The notes under the pieces are model-generated. The model saw only the letters and a list, made by a program, of their open reading frames with translations. It was not told the origin of the DNA and made no database searches. 9,479 bases of DNA, taken from assembly GCA_011049745.1 (NCBI GenBank), contig DRHE01000188.1, positions 1-9,479 on the forward strand, in the 5' to 3' direction. The DNA is from Spirochaetales bacterium. Lineage in GTDB: Bacteria > Spirochaetota > Spirochaetia > SZUA-6 > DRHE01. Positions 620 through 8,209 of the stretch are shown piece after piece (the first letter of the stretch is position 1; each line of letters begins with the position of its first letter). Both the position numbers and the translations under genes were made by a program.

Positions 620-648
620 ATATTACAACCTGAGTCTGCAAATGACAA
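620..648 (-). promoter_or_regulatory. Candidate sigma-70 promoter for the small minus-strand gene
   Basis: On the minus strand TTGTCA (648-643) and TAATAT (625-620) are separated by exactly 17 bases. The expected start of transcription, about seven bases past the -10 box, falls at or next to the A of ATG 612, which would make the message leaderless. No ribosome binding site is seen in front of that ATG. The match is by eye only. Confidence 0.4.
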
Positions 649-685
649 CCTGCCGTTCTTGACGAGGTGCTGAAGTAAATACTTG

Positions 686-705
686 TGGGCCCACAAGGAC
701 TTGAA
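686..705 (+). repeat. Left attachment-site copy (detached tRNA 3' end)
   Basis: The sequence tgggcccacaaggacttgaa is identical to 3692-3711 and stops matching on both sides (g685 against a3691; g706 against c3712). It corresponds, in reverse complement, to the T-loop, 3' half of the T-stem, 3' acceptor strand and discriminator of the tRNA. No tRNA body adjoins it. With neighbouring bases it also forms a perfect 16-bp palindrome at 683-698 (cttgtgggcccacaag). Confidence 0.75.
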
Positions 706-720
706 GGTTGTTACCTCCTT

Positions 721-790
721 TATGTCATCCATATAGGGCTATATGGAGCCATGTATCATGGGTTATGTAGTATGTTATCCATATAAAGCT
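721..790. repeat. Imperfect 20-bp direct repeat, first copy containing an inverted repeat
   Basis: Bases 721-740 (tatgtcatccatatagggct) and 771-790 (tatgttatccatataaagct) agree at 17 of 20 positions and start 50 bp apart. The first copy extends into a perfect inverted repeat, tccatatag-gg-ctatatgga, at 728-747. Lying 16 to 85 bp inside the left attachment copy, these could be arm-type sites for an integrase or excisionase, or operators. No protein that would bind them is encoded here. Confidence 0.5.
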
Positions 791-1116
791 ACTGGGCGTG
801 CTATGGTTTTATTAACTCATGTGGAAATTCTTCCACATTAAGCTCTGCCGACAATGAAATATGGTCACTCTTTTATCTACAATCGTTTTCTCCCATAATG
901 GCAATCTCATCTGCCAACAGTTAAGCAGCTTGAATACGAGTTTGCTTTTTACCTACCCAAAAAATCCATCTCCATGCAGAACTACCGCATTTTTTAATAT
1001 AGAAAGTTTGCGCAATCCCGGTAGTCCCACGGTGGGACTGTTTTTACACTGGGATTAGGATGTTAATGTAAAATTATTTTCGCGTAATTAAATTGTTAGT
1101 ACGCTCTTTAACAGAA
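733..1116. other. Gene-free left end of the element
   Basis: I see no convincing gene in these 384 bases. They hold the direct and inverted repeats near 721-790, a hairpin with 8-bp arms and a 4-base loop at 819-838 (atgtggaa / ttccacat), and a terminator-like hairpin at 1023-1045. A plus-strand frame of 65 codons (861-1058) has no ribosome binding site and no recognisable motif. On the minus strand one frame from about 1063 to 812 is interrupted by a single TAG (953-955), which may be a decayed gene, but I cannot identify it. Confidence 0.5.
1023..1045 (+). terminator. Possible rho-independent terminator
   Basis: A 6-bp stem (agtccc 1023-1028 with gggact 1034-1039) and a five-base loop are followed by gttttt on the plus strand. 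No gene that it would serve is evident upstream. It lies about 70 bp past the 3' end of the convergent hydrolase gene and could also block transcription entering that gene from the left. Confidence 0.4.
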
Positions 1117-2244
1117 TTAAATTCCCGACAAAAAATCACTGACCGACTTTTCGTATAATTCTTTGTCTGCACTCCATCCGTCAGTGTGATTCCCATCATC
1201 TATTTCTACAAGACTTATGTTTTTTGCTTTCTCTGCTAGAGATCTGCTTTCATAAACAGGGACCCACCCGTCATTTTTTGTATGCAGAATGAGAATTGGC
1301 ACCTTAGCATTTACTATATCTCTTCTATAATCCAATGCTTTCCAATTTACTTTGTACAGGATCGAAGTTATTAACTGAACCATTAACAAAAATGGTACAA
1401 CGGCCTTCCCGTACCGTGCTTTCCCACTTTGAAGAACCGATGAAGTAAAATTGAGGTTGGGAGAATCCAGTATAACAGCAGAAGTTTTGTCAGATAATTT
1501 TGATAACTTCATGAAATTGGCGACAATACCTCCGCCCATACTGCACCCGAATAGAATTACATTTTCTGCACCTGTTTTTAAGGAGTAGGCAACGGCGGCT
1601 TCTACATCTGCCCATTCGGTGAGCCCATATTGATATATACCGCTGGGGTCTTTGGGGTTGCCTTTGTCGTTTCTGTAATTTATTGTCAGTGTTGGATATC
1701 CCAGCTGAGTAAACAATGGTAGAAATCCCAGTGAAAGTAATTTTGTATCCCGAACTCCATGGACAAAAATAACACAAGTCGATTTATATCCTTTAGTAAA
1801 CCAGGCATTCATCAATCCAATTGCAGATTCATACTGTACTTCTTTGTATTCAATACCCATATCAGAGGGAGTTCCATGAAACGGCCAGTAACTGACTTTT
1901 ACATTATCACCCTGGTTTAGAGTTCCTTTTAGGCGGTTGTATGATCTTTTTACAGTTGTTGGTATGTCGGTTTTTTTACTGAGTATTTTTTCTGAGGTGC
2001 AAGTAAAATTGGTTCCCTCCAAACCAATATATCCGTCCAGTTCCAATCCGCCCCAGGCAGTCTCATAAATCTCAAGAGTCAATGATTTATCGTCAATCTC
2101 AATTACCTTTGCCCTGTCGGCAACATCCTTATCATTATCCCAGTCCGGATTAAACCCCACATTATAAAGAACCCTGCTAAGTATCAAACCTGCTGCTATG
2201 AATAGAATAATTATTATAACAAGGACAATTGAAACATAGATCAT
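1117..2244 (-). CDS. Membrane-anchored alpha/beta hydrolase (S9/BAAT-like)
   Basis: This 375-residue protein starts with one hydrophobic helix (about residues 2-22) that should act as an uncleaved signal-anchor and place the enzyme outside the membrane. An N-terminal region of about 120 residues without recognised motifs precedes the hydrolase core. The core shows the oxyanion-side motif FVHG (160-163), the nucleophile elbow GCSMGG with Ser235, a probable catalytic acid in TKNDGWVP (Asp325) and the histidine in DGNHTDGW (His353), so the triad looks complete. The arrangement resembles uncharacterised hydrolases of the YqkD/dipeptidyl-peptidase-like group; the substrate cannot be told and may be an ester or peptide. 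ATG 2244 has AGAGGAG about eight bases upstream. The gene lies within the tRNA-bounded block, reads towards its left end, and is divergent from the flavoprotein gene. Confidence 0.85.
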   Translation of the reverse strand: MIYVSIVLVIIIILFIAAGLILSRVLYNVGFNPDWDNDKDVADRAKVIEIDDKSLTLEIYETAWGGLELDGYIGLEGTNFTCTSEKILSKKTDIPTTVKRSYNRLKGTLNQGDNVKVSYWPFHGTPSDMGIEYKEVQYESAIGLMNAWFTKGYKSTCVIFVHGVRDTKLLSLGFLPLFTQLGYPTLTINYRNDKGNPKDPSGIYQYGLTEWADVEAAVAYSLKTGAENVILFGCSMGGGIVANFMKLSKLSDKTSAVILDSPNLNFTSSVLQSGKARYGKAVVPFLLMVQLITSILYKVNWKALDYRRDIVNAKVPILILHTKNDGWVPVYESRSLAEKAKNISLVEIDDGNHTDGWSADKELYEKSVSDFLSGI

Positions 2245-2345
2245 CGCATAAACTCCTCTTCTTTAAAAACAAACTATCAAGATAATATCATGGTACAGTG
2301 GATAAATCAAAATATCAATTCTTCACCAAACATTCATACTTTTAC

Positions 2346-2374
2346 ATTATACTGTATTTAATGTACTCTATTAA
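2346..2374 (-). promoter_or_regulatory. Candidate promoter for the hydrolase gene
   Basis: On the minus strand a perfect TATAAT (2351-2346) sits 17 bases after TTAATA (2374-2369), giving a leader of about 95 bases before ATG 2244. A second possible pair, TTGATA-17-TACCAT, lies nearer the gene. The region is very A+T-rich, so chance matches are common. Confidence 0.35.
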
Positions 2375-2456
2375 CTGATAACTATTAACTTTGAGGCTTA
2401 ACTAATTGTCTACATCATGGGGTCAAGTCCAAAGAGTGTAATTATTGACTGACTTA

Positions 2457-2465
2457 TGTTACAAT
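2457..2465 (+). promoter_or_regulatory. Candidate extended -10 promoter for the flavoprotein gene
   Basis: TG-t-TACAAT (TG at 2457-2458, -10 box 2460-2465) fits an extended -10 element with little -35 match. Predicted transcription would begin near 2472, about 40 bases before ATG 2512. Alternatively TTGACT (2445-2450) pairs at 17 bases with the weaker TAAAAA. Confidence 0.35.
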
Positions 2466-2511
2466 ACTAAAAAATTCTGATGCAATATATTTTTCAAACA
2501 AAGGTAGAAAC

Positions 2512-3171
2512 ATGAAAGTTTTGGCACTAAACGGCAGCCCTCGAAAAAGTGGAAACAGTTCATCTTTGCTTAAGGAGTTTCTAAATGGTGCCACAAATAT
2601 AGACTCCGAAATAACAGAAATTGTTGCTGACAAGGCAGATATCAAATCCTGTAAAGGCTGTCTTAAGTGTAATGTCTATAAGGAATGTGTTATTAAAGGT
2701 GATGAGTGGTCTCAACTCAGTAAATCCATCCTGGAAGCAGATACTATAGTTATTGCCTCACCTATTTATTTTCATCATTTACCTGGTCCACTTAAACTGA
2801 TAATTGATCGCTTTCGGTCTTTTGTTGATGTCAGGGTTACTGAAGAAGGTATAAATCATACTCCATGGCAGTCATGGACTAAACGTTTTGTGCTATTGTT
2901 GTCTCTGGGCTCCTCTGCTCCCGATGATGCAAAACCTGTAATTGACCTTTTTAGATATATGACAGAGATTATGGGCAAACAGAACAGCTTGGAAGTGCTT
3001 ACAGCAACCCGGTTGCAAATGAACGGTCAGGTAAAAATGAACGAACAACGGCTTTCGGGATTATATCCCCGGATAGGTTTGTCGGAGCGCCTCGCTCATA
3101 ATGATTATTTACGTAATCAGGATTTTTTAAAGCAAGCTTATAAAATGGGACAACTGGAACCTTCAAATTGA
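2512..3171 (+). CDS. NAD(P)H-dependent FMN reductase / iron-sulfur flavoprotein (Isf-like)
   Basis: This 219-residue flavodoxin-fold protein binds FMN through NGSPRKSGNS (residues 7-16) and the SPIYFHHLPGPLK loop (about 84-96). Residues 47-59 carry Cys47-x2-Cys50-x2-Cys53-x5-Cys59, matching the compact CX2CX2CX4-7C motif that ligates a [4Fe-4S] cluster in archaeal and anaerobe iron-sulfur flavoproteins. Such proteins move electrons from ferredoxin or NAD(P)H and some reduce oxygen, peroxide or quinones; the partner here is unknown. The later half is more divergent, and relatives with these cysteines are often annotated simply as flavodoxin family protein. ATG 2512 follows AAAGGTAG, a modest ribosome binding site. 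The gene is a cargo gene of the tRNA-bounded block. A soluble ferredoxin gene lies just outside the block and could be a donor, but this is conjecture. Confidence 0.85.
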   Translation: MKVLALNGSPRKSGNSSSLLKEFLNGATNIDSEITEIVADKADIKSCKGCLKCNVYKECVIKGDEWSQLSKSILEADTIVIASPIYFHHLPGPLKLIIDRFRSFVDVRVTEEGINHTPWQSWTKRFVLLLSLGSSAPDDAKPVIDLFRYMTEIMGKQNSLEVLTATRLQMNGQVKMNEQRLSGLYPRIGLSERLAHNDYLRNQDFLKQAYKMGQLEPSN

Positions 3172-3257
3172 GGCAACGATCAGATTTTCTGAACAGATTC
3201 CTGGCATTAACCAGTGCTATGGCTTTTTTAACTCGTGGGTTATTTTTTACACGGAAG

Positions 3258-3374
3258 CATCAGCAAGACGTCTTGATAACCGCTTATTTTCATCATCAAG
3301 TCCTCTTGTTCATACAAAATATGGATCAACAAGACGTCTCTATCTTTTAAAATTTCCCTATACAAGACAACTCG
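3258..3374 (+). repeat. Four degenerate repeats at exact 33-bp spacing, caagacgtcttg core
   Basis: Core sites begin at 3264 (caagacgtcttg, a perfect palindrome), 3297 (caagtcctcttg), 3330 (caagacgtctct) and 3363 (caagacaactcg), each 33 bp apart. The six bases before them are related (catcag, catcat, gatcaa, cctata). A fifth copy, cattat plus caagacaactta, occurs at 3450-3467, 93 bp after the fourth. Thirty-three bases is about three helical turns, so the cores lie on nearly the same DNA face. Read as protein the spacing gives an 11-residue periodicity (SARRLDNRLFS, STRRLYLLKFP), with a stop after the fourth unit. Confidence 0.5.
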
Positions 3375-3587
3375 TTACCTGGTAATCAGAAGTACTTACC
3401 TTGTAAAAGGCTGTCTACTGCTACGTATTCGATTTCAGCTTAAATAATCCATTATCAAGACAACTTATTGATAGACTTTTCTCAATTGATGAAGGCAAGT
3501 TTATACACTGAAACCCAGACAGTAAATACCAAAAAATAGAGATAGAAAAACCCAAATCACATTTCAATTGGCGTCAATAAAGGCGTC

Positions 3588-3605
3588 AGTACCAAATTTG
3601 GTACT
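3588..3605. promoter_or_regulatory. 18-bp perfect palindrome, possible operator
   Basis: agtaccaaatttggtact reads the same on both strands, with an A/T-rich centre as in sites for dimeric helix-turn-helix repressors. It is preceded by two ggcgtca copies 12 bp apart. It lies 87 bp from the right attachment copy. As RNA it could form a 6-bp stem with a 6-base loop followed by tttt, so a weak terminator is the alternative. Confidence 0.4.
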
Positions 3606-3660
3606 TTTACCTAAATCTCAATAATCAGCTTAATCTCTTCCCCCGAAAGGGTTTAAACAC

Positions 3661-3689
3661 AAAAAAAGCACCTCAAAAAGAGGTGCTTT
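3661..3689 (-). terminator. Rho-independent terminator of the tRNA transcript
   Basis: On the minus strand a 10-bp stem AAAGCACCTC / GAGGTGCTTT (3689-3680 with 3674-3665), with a TTTTT loop, is followed by further T residues (3664-3661). It begins three bases past the tRNA discriminator base and should end the tRNA-containing transcript. Confidence 0.85.
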
Positions 3690-3691
3690 CA

Positions 3692-3711
3692 TGGGCCCAC
3701 AAGGACTTGAA
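3692..3711 (+). repeat. Right attachment-site copy, inside the tRNA gene
   Basis: This is the second exact copy of tgggcccacaaggacttgaa. It is the 3' end of the tRNA read on the opposite strand, from the discriminator base through the acceptor strand and T-stem into the T-loop, the segment most often used as attB by tyrosine integrases. Confidence 0.75.
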
Positions 3712-3765
3712 CCTTGGACCGACGGATTATGAGTCCGTTGCTCTAACCAACTGAGCTATGGGCCC
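3692..3765 (-). tRNA. tRNA with CAU anticodon (Met or lysidine-modified Ile2)
   Basis: The 74 bases fold as a complete cloverleaf: acceptor GGGCCCA/TGGGCCC with discriminator A, D-arm GCTC-AGTTGGTTA-GAGC, anticodon stem ACGGA/TCCGT with loop CTCATAA, five-base variable region CGGTC, and T-arm CAAGG-TTCAAGT-CCTTG. The anticodon is CAT. It is not the initiator, because the first acceptor pair is a normal G-C and the anticodon stem lacks three G-C pairs. Elongator Met and Ile2 (C34 changed to lysidine by TilS) cannot be separated by eye; the TTCAAGTCC T-arm favours Ile2 slightly. No CCA is encoded, so the CCA-adding enzyme is needed. The gene follows the ferredoxin gene closely and probably shares its transcript. 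Its 3' end forms the attachment site of the neighbouring element. Confidence 0.9.
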
Positions 3766-4022: not shown

Positions 4023-4724
4023 CTACTTCCTGCGGCCGAGAAAGCGCAGCAGGAACAAGAAGAGATTAATAAAATCCAGGTAAAGCTTCAAGGCTCCAAG
4101 CAAAGAAATACGTAAGTAATCAGCTTCGGATACTGAATCTCCAAGCTCCCGGCTCCATTTTTTAATGATTTGAGTGTCATAGGCGGTGAGCGCGGTGAAC
4201 AGGCCCACACCGGCCAGGGAGATGAGCCAGTAGAGAGCCTCACTGCGGAAAAGGAAATTAATCAGAGAGGCGATAATTATTCCCCATAAAGCCATGCGCA
4301 GGTAATGACCTATACCTGAGAGGTCTTTATGGGTGGTCAATCCAAATAAAGACATACCACCAAAGGTTAAAGAGGCTACAAAGAAGGTCATTGCAATGCT
4401 GGCGCCCGTATAAACTAAGAAGATCAGGGATAGGGTAACACCATTTAAGGCGGAATAGGCGGTAAAGGTAGCTACGGCAGCCATGGGGCTTAAACTCATG
4501 ACCCGCGCAGAAAAGAAGAAAACCAGGACAAGCTCAGCAATGATAAGACCATAAAAAACAAGCGGATTGGAAAATATTGCCCTTACCAATTGAGGGCTTC
4601 CCGCCACGCCCATGGCAATTACACCGGTAAGGGCAAGGCCGCCGCTCATCCAGAGATAAACATTCTTAAGAATTTTATTCTCAAGCGATGCCTGGGCAGG
4701 TATTGATACTATTCTATTATCCAC
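4023..4724 (-). CDS. BI-1 / YccA-YbhL family membrane protein
   Basis: This is a Bax inhibitor-1 family integral membrane protein (233 residues from GTG 4724) with about seven hydrophobic helices. Typical family signatures are present: ALNGVTLSLIF in the middle, TAYDTQIIKK (Asp183) and LYLDFINLFLFLLR (Asp217) near the C-terminus. The two aspartates correspond to the pair that gates pH-dependent calcium leak in Bacillus YetJ; that role is known for the family, not shown here. The frame is open to a GTG at 4760 (245 residues), but GGGAGGAAG at 4740-4732 is correctly placed for GTG 4724, so I chose the shorter form. The C-terminal RFLGRRK is a basic cytoplasmic tail. The gene heads a minus-strand unit with ferredoxin and tRNA and is divergent from the small membrane-protein gene. 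Confidence 0.92.
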   Translation of the reverse strand: MDNRIVSIPAQASLENKILKNVYLWMSGGLALTGVIAMGVAGSPQLVRAIFSNPLVFYGLIIAELVLVFFFSARVMSLSPMAAVATFTAYSALNGVTLSLIFLVYTGASIAMTFFVASLTFGGMSLFGLTTHKDLSGIGHYLRMALWGIIIASLINFLFRSEALYWLISLAGVGLFTALTAYDTQIIKKWSRELGDSVSEADYLRISLLGALKLYLDFINLFLFLLRFLGRRK

Positions 4725-4887: not shown

Positions 4888-5166
4888 ATGGTAGCTCTGA
4901 TGGTAGGTCTTTTACTGATTGCATTCGCGGTTTTTGCGATACTTCCCTTTCCCTGGGCGCTGCACTGGTGGCCCGAGGTTGTCCAATTCTTGAAGGGCGG
5001 TGTGCCCCTGATGGCGGTTTTTATTGGTATAATCTCCTTCTTTGTGGGGGTGGCGGATATTAAAGATAAGATAGAGACAAAGAGAGAGGAAGCAGAGGAA
5101 GCAGAGGAAACAGAGGAAACAGAGGAAACAGAGGAAACTAAAGCAACAGAAGAGGAGAGCTCTTGA
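4888..5166 (+). CDS. Small two-helix membrane protein with acidic repeat tail (LapA-like)
   Basis: From ATG 4888, preceded by GAGGAGG, the product has 92 residues. The frame is open from 4762, but that longer start would lie upstream of the promoter and has no ribosome binding site. Two hydrophobic segments (about residues 2-22 and 37-55) flank a Trp/Pro-rich loop (PFPWALHWWPE), and a charged helix IKDKIETKREE leads into a Glu/Thr-rich tail made by a 9-bp tandem repeat. The shape is that of LapA/DUF1049 proteins, small inner-membrane proteins linked in proteobacteria to lipopolysaccharide assembly, but the similarity is in layout rather than firm motifs. The function here is unknown. The stop codon overlaps the -35 box of the next promoter. 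Confidence 0.7.
   Translation: MVALMVGLLLIAFAVFAILPFPWALHWWPEVVQFLKGGVPLMAVFIGIISFFVGVADIKDKIETKREEAEEAEETEETEETEETKATEEESS
5086..5139 (+). repeat. Six tandem 9-bp units within the small membrane-protein gene
   Basis: Units gaggaagca (two), gaggaaaca (three) and gaggaaact (one) run without a break and encode (EEA)2(EET)4. Because the unit is a multiple of three, gain or loss of copies would change tail length without a frameshift. Confidence 0.85.
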
Positions 5167-6051: not shown

Positions 6052-6667
6052 ACTTACCGTCCTTTCAGTAAAAAGGGGAGGAACCAGGGGGGAGATGGCT
6101 CATATTGATCTCTCCAATGGTTCCTCTCTTTCTGTTTTAGCGGCTATCATTTTGCAGGAGGGTATCAGACCCGGTGAGGAGTTGAGCGGAGCCAGGATAG
6201 ATGAACTGAAAAAAAAATCGGAATTGCTGGCAGCTGAGAAACGTGGAATTTCCCTGTTGGCCAGGAGCCAGCATTCGGCTCATGGTCTTAAGGTGAAACT
6301 GTTCCGGAGAGGGTTCAGTGAGAGTGTAATCAGCCTGGTCCTGGAGGGTCTTGAAGAATCAGGGCTGGTGGATGACAGGGCCTATTGTGAAAGCTGGCTC
6401 TACTCCCGCCTGGATCGCCATCCCGAAGGCAGGTCCGCGCTTATTGGCGGATTAAGAAAACGGGGCATAAAGAGAGAGCTTGCCGAGGATATGGTTCAGG
6501 AAATTGTCACTCCCCAGGTTGAAGAGGAATGTGCCCGCCGGGTAATCGAGAAACTTAAAAGATCCGCTTCTTTAAGCAATTCTAAGATGATCTCACACTT
6601 AAGCTCCCGCGGTTTCAGCTGCCGGTTGATCAGAGCGGTGCTGGACCTGGAGGAGGATCTACTATAG
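6017..6667 (+). CDS. recX: RecX family regulatory protein
   Basis: RecX binds within the RecA filament and restrains (in some species helps) its recombinase and coprotease action. The product is rich in helices arranged as repeated three-helix units; the best signature is [36 protein letters not shown], written here only as key residues: Asp-Asp-Arg-Ala-Tyr followed by Ser-Arg and Lys-Arg-Gly-Ile. An N-terminal strand region ([11 protein letters not shown]... [19 protein letters not shown]) aligns in pattern with the start of Firmicutes RecX. That region argues for a start upstream of ATG 6095 (190 residues), although 6095 has purine-rich sequence nearby. GTG 6017 (216 residues, 35-base overlap with rpsI) is my choice; TTG 5990 (225 residues) is also possible. 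The position behind rpsI suggests co-transcription and translational coupling. Confidence 0.85.
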
Positions 6668-7941: not shown

Positions 7942-8209
7942 GGCTTTCAGCGCCCGTGTTGAGGGAATGGTCCAGGGGGTGGGGTTCAGATTCTCCGCGC
8001 TCCATACAGCCGGCAGGTTAAGAATCAGCGGTTACGTGCAGAATTTGCCCGATGGTTCGGTAAAGGTAGTTGCCGAAGGCGAGGCGCAGAACCTTGACCG
8101 CTTCCGGAACTGGTTGGAAAAGGGTCCTTTGGGCGCTCATGTACGTAATTTATCCGTGGTGGAACGCCCCTATTCCGGATATTATAAGAATTTTACTATT
8201 GAATATTGA
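7922..8209 (+). CDS. Acylphosphatase
   Basis: Acylphosphatase hydrolyses carboxyl-phosphate mixed anhydrides such as acetyl phosphate, carbamoyl phosphate and 1,3-bisphosphoglycerate. The 95-residue product has the family's usual length and both active-site elements: VEGMVQGVGFRF (residues 13-24), with Arg23 binding the phosphate, and GYVQNLPDGSV (38-48), with Asn41 orienting the water. The C-terminal FTIEY is the usual last strand. GTG 7922 is supported by AGGCGGGA just upstream. The gene overlaps the receiver gene by 20 bases in another frame, implying coupled translation and a tight stoichiometric link. Confidence 0.95.
   Translation: MADRNPKAFSARVEGMVQGVGFRFSALHTAGRLRISGYVQNLPDGSVKVVAEGEAQNLDRFRNWLEKGPLGAHVRNLSVVERPYSGYYKNFTIEY

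Follow-up and report, generated by a model that had tools for sequence, protein, structure and literature searches.

A two-gene, recombinase-free block with conserved ends, probably inserted at a tRNA T-loop in a Spirochaetales genome

The stretch analyzed here, referred to as the window, is a whole contig of 9,479 nucleotides from a Spirochaetales bacterium (DRHE01000188.1), in which a 3,006-bp block lies between a displaced copy of a tRNA 3' end and the intact tRNA gene. We consider it probable that this block is a two-gene, recombinase-free cassette belonging to a family in the class Spirochaetia with conserved left (L) and right (R) ends, and that it was inserted at the T-loop of the tRNA, which has a CAT anticodon, by a tyrosine recombinase encoded elsewhere. 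Action in trans is suggested because the cassettes share the arms within their ends and recombinase genes are missing. An earlier, sequence-only reading of this DNA had left two possibilities, an island that lost its integrase or one moved in trans; as several genera and two kinds of tRNA loop have these conserved ends in cassettes with no intact recombinase, the choice narrows in favor of movement in trans and away from an isolated decayed island.

The 20-base sequence TGGGCCCACAAGGACTTGAA occurs at 686–705 and 3692–3711, both on the forward strand, and these are its only two matches in the window at up to three mismatches (there were none in 200 dinucleotide shuffles, so that chance identity is, as had been argued, very unlikely) and its only exact copies in the host assembly (2.42 Mb, 73% complete). 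The right copy closes an intact tRNA, of which it makes up the final 20 bases, at 3692–3765 on the reverse strand (Rfam tRNA score of 76 bits), either an elongator Met or an Ile2 tRNA. Read along the tRNA, the 20-mer consists of the T-loop TTCAAGT (7 bases), the 3' strand of the T-stem CCTTG (5), the acceptor strand TGGGCCC (7) and the discriminator A (1), and thus the extent from T-loop to discriminator given in the sequence-only reading is exact. The two copies diverge one base 5' of the T-loop (CAAGG in the tRNA vs. CAACC in the left copy), and identity starting at the first T-loop base is the edge to expect for a tyrosine-integrase crossover across a 7-bp loop. The interior was rightly described as A+T-rich, its G+C content being 0.375 as against 0.464 and 0.468 in the left and right flanks; of the structured ends also described, the right one was confirmed (a hairpin at 3665–3689, and a fold z of −3.1 for 3545–3711) and the left one was not (686–815, z of −1.55).

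An empty site of the kind that the same reading had proposed to look for is present in G001, which alone among our sampled genomes shares the window's genus. It shares the gene order, with ~92% identity to the right of the insert and ~87% to the left, and has a single tRNA at the locus; the sequence left of window position 686 directly adjoins the tRNA 3' end, with window positions 635–705 aligning gap-free to G001 up to that end (71 bp, 90% identity). The insert length of 3,006 bp, which includes the 20-bp duplication, is relative to G001. No relative was seen in which the 20-mer at 686 stood with a different tRNA or with none, a case that had been named as contrary to the island. The locus therefore resembles a tRNA-targeted island in having an intact tRNA at one end, a displaced 3' fragment at the other and an empty site in a relative; the tyrosine recombinase of its own that such islands, and tycheposons, carry was not found in the insert by Pfam and profile scans. 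With two genomes compared, the block may have been either gained here or lost from G001, and either event would imply mobility. Four more family members, at their loci around the tRNA (L043–L046), gave no left end with the covariance model.

When the DNA of the insert was searched against 60 relatives, with few candidates scored per genome, it matched at its two ends only, in two genomes (G047 and G050), and near these matches were more copies of the tRNA core as well as tandem units. Profiles trained on 12 left ends and 20 right ends, with the window held out, found the window's left end at 721–797 (E-value of 1e-13) and its right end at 3550–3600 (2e-11). The left end is a block of ~112 bp with TTATGT-GT-CATATA repeats, usually closing in the same GGCGTC pair as the right arm; the right end has GGCGTCAATANNGGCGTCA, which in the window is ~100 bp away from the core and is often followed, in the family, by a CCCCGAAAGGGTTTA hairpin and a terminator. 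At up to one mismatch the right-arm motif occurs at 48 sites in 28 of 198 genomes of the class, compared with 8 sites for the reversed pattern, and some of the genomes with a single site are probably due to chance. A DNA search with one left end (that of L098, so that distant ends were missed) found left ends in 19 of 394 Spirochaetia genomes and 11 of 132 genera, the window's own included; the richest family is that of G050, with 11 of its 26 genomes. Under stricter filters, the L-end model found two of 296 genomes in a phylum-wide sample, one of them the window's. The cassette family is also present in the single-contig genomes G050 and G071, and G107 has ends close to those of the window (L329, 78.6% identity over 3259–3765; L105, 94% over 686–735). 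Ends were not found in viral contigs with three patterns, nor in phage and plasmid records, searched for the left end only. The exact R-arm pattern alone occurs in 20 stretches of viral contigs, where profile matches cover little past the motif (best E-value of 4.6e-6); among the at least 80 matches to it listed for all GTDB genomes, most are in unrelated phyla, as by chance.

The association with tRNA genes extends to the relatives. In the fetched loci, 22 of 37 left ends are preceded by a tRNA 3' fragment, as compared with none of 150 random control stretches at that score, although 12 of the 37 trained the profile and copies within one array are related, so that these are not 22 independent events. 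By best match, the fragments are to Met(CAT) in 12 cases, Leu(CAG) in eight and Leu(GAG) in two. In 21 of the 22 the fragment ends 13–14 bp before the left arm, the exception being L315:8543, which has a diverged core, and this spacing is common to the T-loop cores of tRNA(CAT) and the ~50-bp anticodon-loop cores of tRNA-Leu; both kinds of core occur in one array in L057 (G047). At the other end, 13 of 31 right ends, their letters read by eye, run straight into an intact tRNA. Tandem arrays were seen in L090, L057, L092/L093 and L091; the window itself holds a single cassette, and repeated units at one tRNA occur only in relatives (L090, L057, L092). About a dozen cassettes, of ~0.2 to 9.7 kb and from nine genera, are delimited at both ends. 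A separate observation is that in L096, L101, L104, L283, L316 and L057/L059 G+C-rich palindromes follow the tRNA core, where the left arm would stand; these perhaps mark where elements of a different type, targeting the same loop, end.

The lack of an integrase in the insert, as claimed from the sequence alone, held up under closer search: four of its open reading frames scanned against Pfam had no recombinase domain, and 86 segments of its interior had no match to a recombinase profile better than an E-value of 2.9. Over 45 loci (569,736 bases) the same profile gave three matches, one in L284, a non-carrier locus of G001 included by range, one in L314, an intact integrase that adjoins an L end and lies outside the cassette, and one in L057, a 52-residue integrase-like stretch inside a cassette (6371–6526, E-value of 2.8e-4). 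No cassette among those examined has an intact tyrosine recombinase inside it, and one has this weak remnant. Tyrosine recombinases were found in all 19 genomes searched, in a match list reaching weak E-values. A serine recombinase was rejected as the common enzyme, having been found in seven of 21 genomes searched. Tyrosine integrases of phage type in these genomes were also set aside, as a different tRNA gene or a tmRNA gene is present in seven of the 14 loci scanned, and arm-like matches near these integrases are at chance level (at up to four mismatches, 20 matches as against 19 with the motif reversed).

The integrase in L314 belongs to a satellite- or prophage-like element of G138 (L314/L356, G138:C56, 2018–14974), with both terminase subunits, a portal, a head-protease-like protein and a major head protein by PHROGs; after it come a core of the tRNA(CAT) type, at 14959, and then a cassette left end. 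L354 with L110 (both G050) and L355 (G047:C50) are similar to it by eye, with no tail genes recognized by eye. Palindromes like GTAGGGTTTACCCTAC lie beside the variable region of such elements (L110, 77–101 and 4682–4703; L123, 3310–3333; L314, near 3196 and 9026) and may be a cargo-swap site or a terminator.

The layout of the window's insert, including features that bear less directly on its mobility, is as follows.

686..705, forward strand: left core, the displaced tRNA 3' end from T-loop to discriminator (exact repeat; its left side aligns with the G001 empty site)
706..719, forward: 14-bp spacer from crossover edge to left arm (the window is among the 21 of 22 cored left ends with 13–14 bp)
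720..797, forward: left arm, a partial conserved L end without its distal GGCGTC part (held-out profile, covariance model at 63 bits, alignment)
798..836, forward: first copy of the side motif GTGCTATGGTTTT.TTAACTC (motif search)
1117..2244, reverse: alpha/beta hydrolase, 375 residues, with an N-terminal membrane segment by eye (Pfam PF00561, 47 bits)
2512..3171, forward: NADPH-dependent FMN reductase-like flavoprotein, 219 residues (PF03358, 73 bits)
3214..3252, forward: second copy of the side motif (motif search)
3264..3467, forward: five iterons resembling CAAGAC(G)TCTTG, four of them spaced at 33 bp (pattern search)
3570..3588, forward: right arm GGCGTCAATANNGGCGTCA (held-out profile match at 3550–3600, alignment, class scan)
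3640..3655, forward: recurrent CCCCCGAAAGGGTTTA hairpin between right arm and core (alignment, fold)
3665..3689, reverse: terminator-like hairpin just 3' of the tRNA, on the insert side (perfect 10-bp inverted repeat with a run of T in the strand of the tRNA; fold)
3692..3711, forward: right core within the intact tRNA (exact repeat)
3692..3765, reverse: intact tRNA with anticodon CAT (tRNA and Rfam prediction)

On this layout, a mechanism can be proposed in which the cassette would travel as a circle in which the tRNA 3' end lies at the junction, between the right arm and the left arm. The enzyme would bind the arms and exchange strands across the 7-bp loop, which is flanked by the halves of a hairpin stem; the tRNA would stay whole, since the circle would supply the tRNA 3' end together with a new terminator, and arrays would be built by repeated insertion at the same tRNA. 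The terminator-like hairpin at 3665–3689 is not found at the corresponding place in G001. A wider and more tentative proposal, to which we give less than even odds, is that the family is a tRNA-loop counterpart of integrons, in which integrase-free cassettes with common arms are served by one trans-acting recombinase at several tRNA hairpin loops (the T-loop of tRNA-CAT, the anticodon loops of tRNA-Leu), with tandem arrays through which spirochaetes would spread genes for metabolism, defence and toxin-antitoxin systems among themselves. The data suggest that one arm set could serve different tRNA loops. With their near-fixed distance from the crossover, the arms offer a defined substrate for trying each resident recombinase, and they are also a search key for counting cassettes.

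Several observations weigh against a cassette moved in trans. The host assembly is fragmented, and G001 could itself have shed the block by precise excision. The window's left arm is without the GGCGTC half, so this copy is perhaps immobile now. No tRNA fragment above threshold precedes 15 of the 37 L ends, including those in L098 and L325 (score of 13), the fetched loci leave most cassettes open on at least one side, and among the 45 loci three (L059, L284, L328) have no end at all. Three genomes of the richest family (G070, G086, G120) have R ends, and the L-end search of them gave none. The positive control of the recombinase profile (20 of 20 loci) consists of the loci used to build it, and the integrase neighborhoods L108, L110–L129 and L267–L281 have no L or R profile match at an E-value of 0.01 or less. 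In addition, the hydrolase of the insert has a close relative in G107 (L360, 7569–8696, G107:C233) with no flavoprotein beside it, and the 16 kb fetched around this copy contain neither an L or R end nor a tRNA or a core of the tRNA(CAT) type; hence this cargo gene is not confined to cassettes.

The nearest alternative is a cis-mobilizable element (CIME) in the strict sense, i.e., a relic of an integrase-bearing element (a phage satellite, an integrative and mobilizable element (IME) or an integrative and conjugative element (ICE)) that lost its integrase and kept its attachment ends. Such elements and their accretion are already described (PMC5704250, in the part of that account drawn on here), and the window agrees with them in its lack of integrase and transfer genes (its genes are a hydrolase and a flavoprotein), in keeping both attachment ends, attL and attR, and, for the family, in tandem accretion. 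The G047 cassette with the 52-residue stretch, which runs in L057 from a coreless left end at 4026 to a core at 8193, could be read as a relic caught in decay, and the G138 element, which has its own integrase and precedes a tRNA(CAT)-type core and an L end, indicates that an integrase with the same target may exist. However, about a dozen delimited cassettes from nine genera share their ends and hold no intact integrase, which makes independent decay each time unlikely; there is no integrase remnant in the window's insert by profile scan, the G138 element has no R-arm match at its own end, and no parental element bearing these arms was found here, a CIME being by the same account's definition a decayed ICE or IME. 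We therefore regard a strict CIME as unlikely, though worth keeping in mind.

A different enzyme would be involved if these were integron cassettes moved by the integron integrase that is common in these genomes, with tRNA hairpins in the role of attC. Integron integrase matches occur in 65 of 198 class genomes searched, one of them, in G047, being interrupted, and overall they are associated with the motif: TIGR02249 (372.7 bits, cut-off of 265) is found in 21 of 28 motif-bearing genomes vs. 44 of 170 others of the class (Fisher p of 9e-7), and the cargo (toxin-antitoxin, AbiH, GNAT) is integron-like. Within the richest family, however, the association is gone (9 of 12 vs. 5 of 7, p of 1, with G110 counted as motif-free though it has L ends), the R-end carriers G070, G079 and G105 have no integron integrase match at an E-value of 1e-30 or less, and the integron integrases examined (L108, L267–L281) have no arm nearby. 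Nor does the left arm have a long attC-like hairpin, as its 14 pairs include none with double-sided changes and the window's left end, one strand folded, gives the z of −1.55 noted above. This explanation is in our view highly improbable. The window's own genome, G000, has an integron integrase match to residues 251–401 at a contig end; separately, L108 (6619–7827) and relatives encode an integron integrase that is longer at its N-terminus by ~90 residues and beside which no cassette array was seen. Misassembly might be suspected, as the window is one whole contig of a fragmented assembly, and so might chance identity or an old duplication of the tRNA in tandem, but the shuffles of the 20-mer, the empty site in G001, the held-out profile matches, and the fact that the two ends are ordered and oriented as in the rest of a family found also in the single-contig genomes G050 and G071 reduce these to a negligible chance.

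A cassette with shared arms moved in trans would probably belong with the additive tRNA-cassette islands, as a variant whose shared arms appear to be new. The cited parts of work on Alteromonas, Actinomarinales and Methylopumilus (PMC10872708, PMC7771536, PMC4119200) describe cassettes that are added at tRNA genes and can be recognized by directly repeated tRNA ends, e.g., the last 20 nt of tRNA-Lys (PMC10872708), tell-tale repeats at five tRNAs that serve as cassette targets (PMC7771536) and a 52-nt tRNA-Leu repeat (PMC4119200). Conserved arms are not described in those parts, whereas in the present family the left arm (~112 bp) and the right arm (GGCGTC) recur across genera and three tRNA targets with near-fixed spacing; the same parts give the repeats and not the cassette-adding enzyme, a question that the arms make testable. 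Arms shared across three tRNA targets appear to be new to report, as we found no description in open-access titles and abstract openings, the subscription literature being outside this scope. Tycheposons, described in the part of the source cited as 4–200 kb with a tyrosine recombinase (PMC10872708), are likewise tRNA-bordered cargo; the cassettes here have no recombinase within and are mostly smaller. Integrons are described in Treponema, with attC sites that are stem-loops of 63–132 bp according to the cited part of PMC3607928. Integron cassettes resemble those here as small recombinase-free cargo units in arrays, but here the left and right arms are unlike each other and lie at tRNA loops, and no attC-like hairpin was found. 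Mycobacteriophage Ms6 also integrates at a T-loop, as a phage targeting tRNA-Ala genes, whereas here T-loop and anticodon-loop targets have the same arms. IMEX (Xer-exploiting elements) use host Xer recombinases at dif; the target here is a tRNA loop.

The cargo also points to movement between lineages. At an E-value of 1e-40 the hydrolase was found in three of 394 class genomes, namely the window's own, G107 (90% protein identity) and G136 (69%), the latter two belonging to family f27 and not to the window's family, and six other genomes of the window's family searched (G001–G006) had no match at that threshold. That the gene is ancestral at this locus is disfavored by its absence from these six and its 90% identity in G107 of another family, and the DNA match to G107 (92.8% over 1,204 bp, window 1116–2318) speaks for a recent transfer. 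The flavoprotein has relatives in other assemblies at 96% and 69–70% identity. Other cassettes have, inside them or beside their left end, toxin-antitoxin and defence genes (HigB-HigA-like, HepT-like, nucleotidyltransferase, AbiEi-like and AbiH); GNAT is also among the cargo, and L092 has efflux genes by eye.

Two further sequences of the insert recur elsewhere, in both cases with a pattern derived from the window itself. The side motif GTGCTATGGTTTTTTTAACTCGTGG, at up to six mismatches, has five matches in 906 kb of 87 loci (reversed control, none), at 798–836 and 3214–3252 of the window and in L058 (8911), L105 (12914) and L326 (5484). Iteron-like sites lie upstream of right arms in L105 (four), L329 (two), L055 (one) and L091 (one), amounting with the five of the window to 13 sites over 28 right ends, or 0.46 per 600 bp vs. 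0.044 in 500 control stretches; the iterons are a sub-family mark and may, as a guess, be binding sites of an accessory protein.

Outside the insert, a reverse-strand open frame across the left copy (304–732) was rejected as a gene, being an open-frame artefact: seven of eight relatives found are of 102 residues, which fits a start at the ATG that ends at 612. This 102-residue gene (304–612, reverse; eight relatives, 80–97% identical) and its flank, between copies of TCTGCAA at 308–314 and 635–641, are not in G001, which retains one TCTGCAA. The missing 308–641 stretch is likely a small deletion in G001 via these short repeats; the difference is probably independent of the island, and the gene unrelated to the insert. 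At 5076–5147, a 9-bp tandem repeat encodes the charged tail of a small membrane protein, with fewer units, by eye, in G001.

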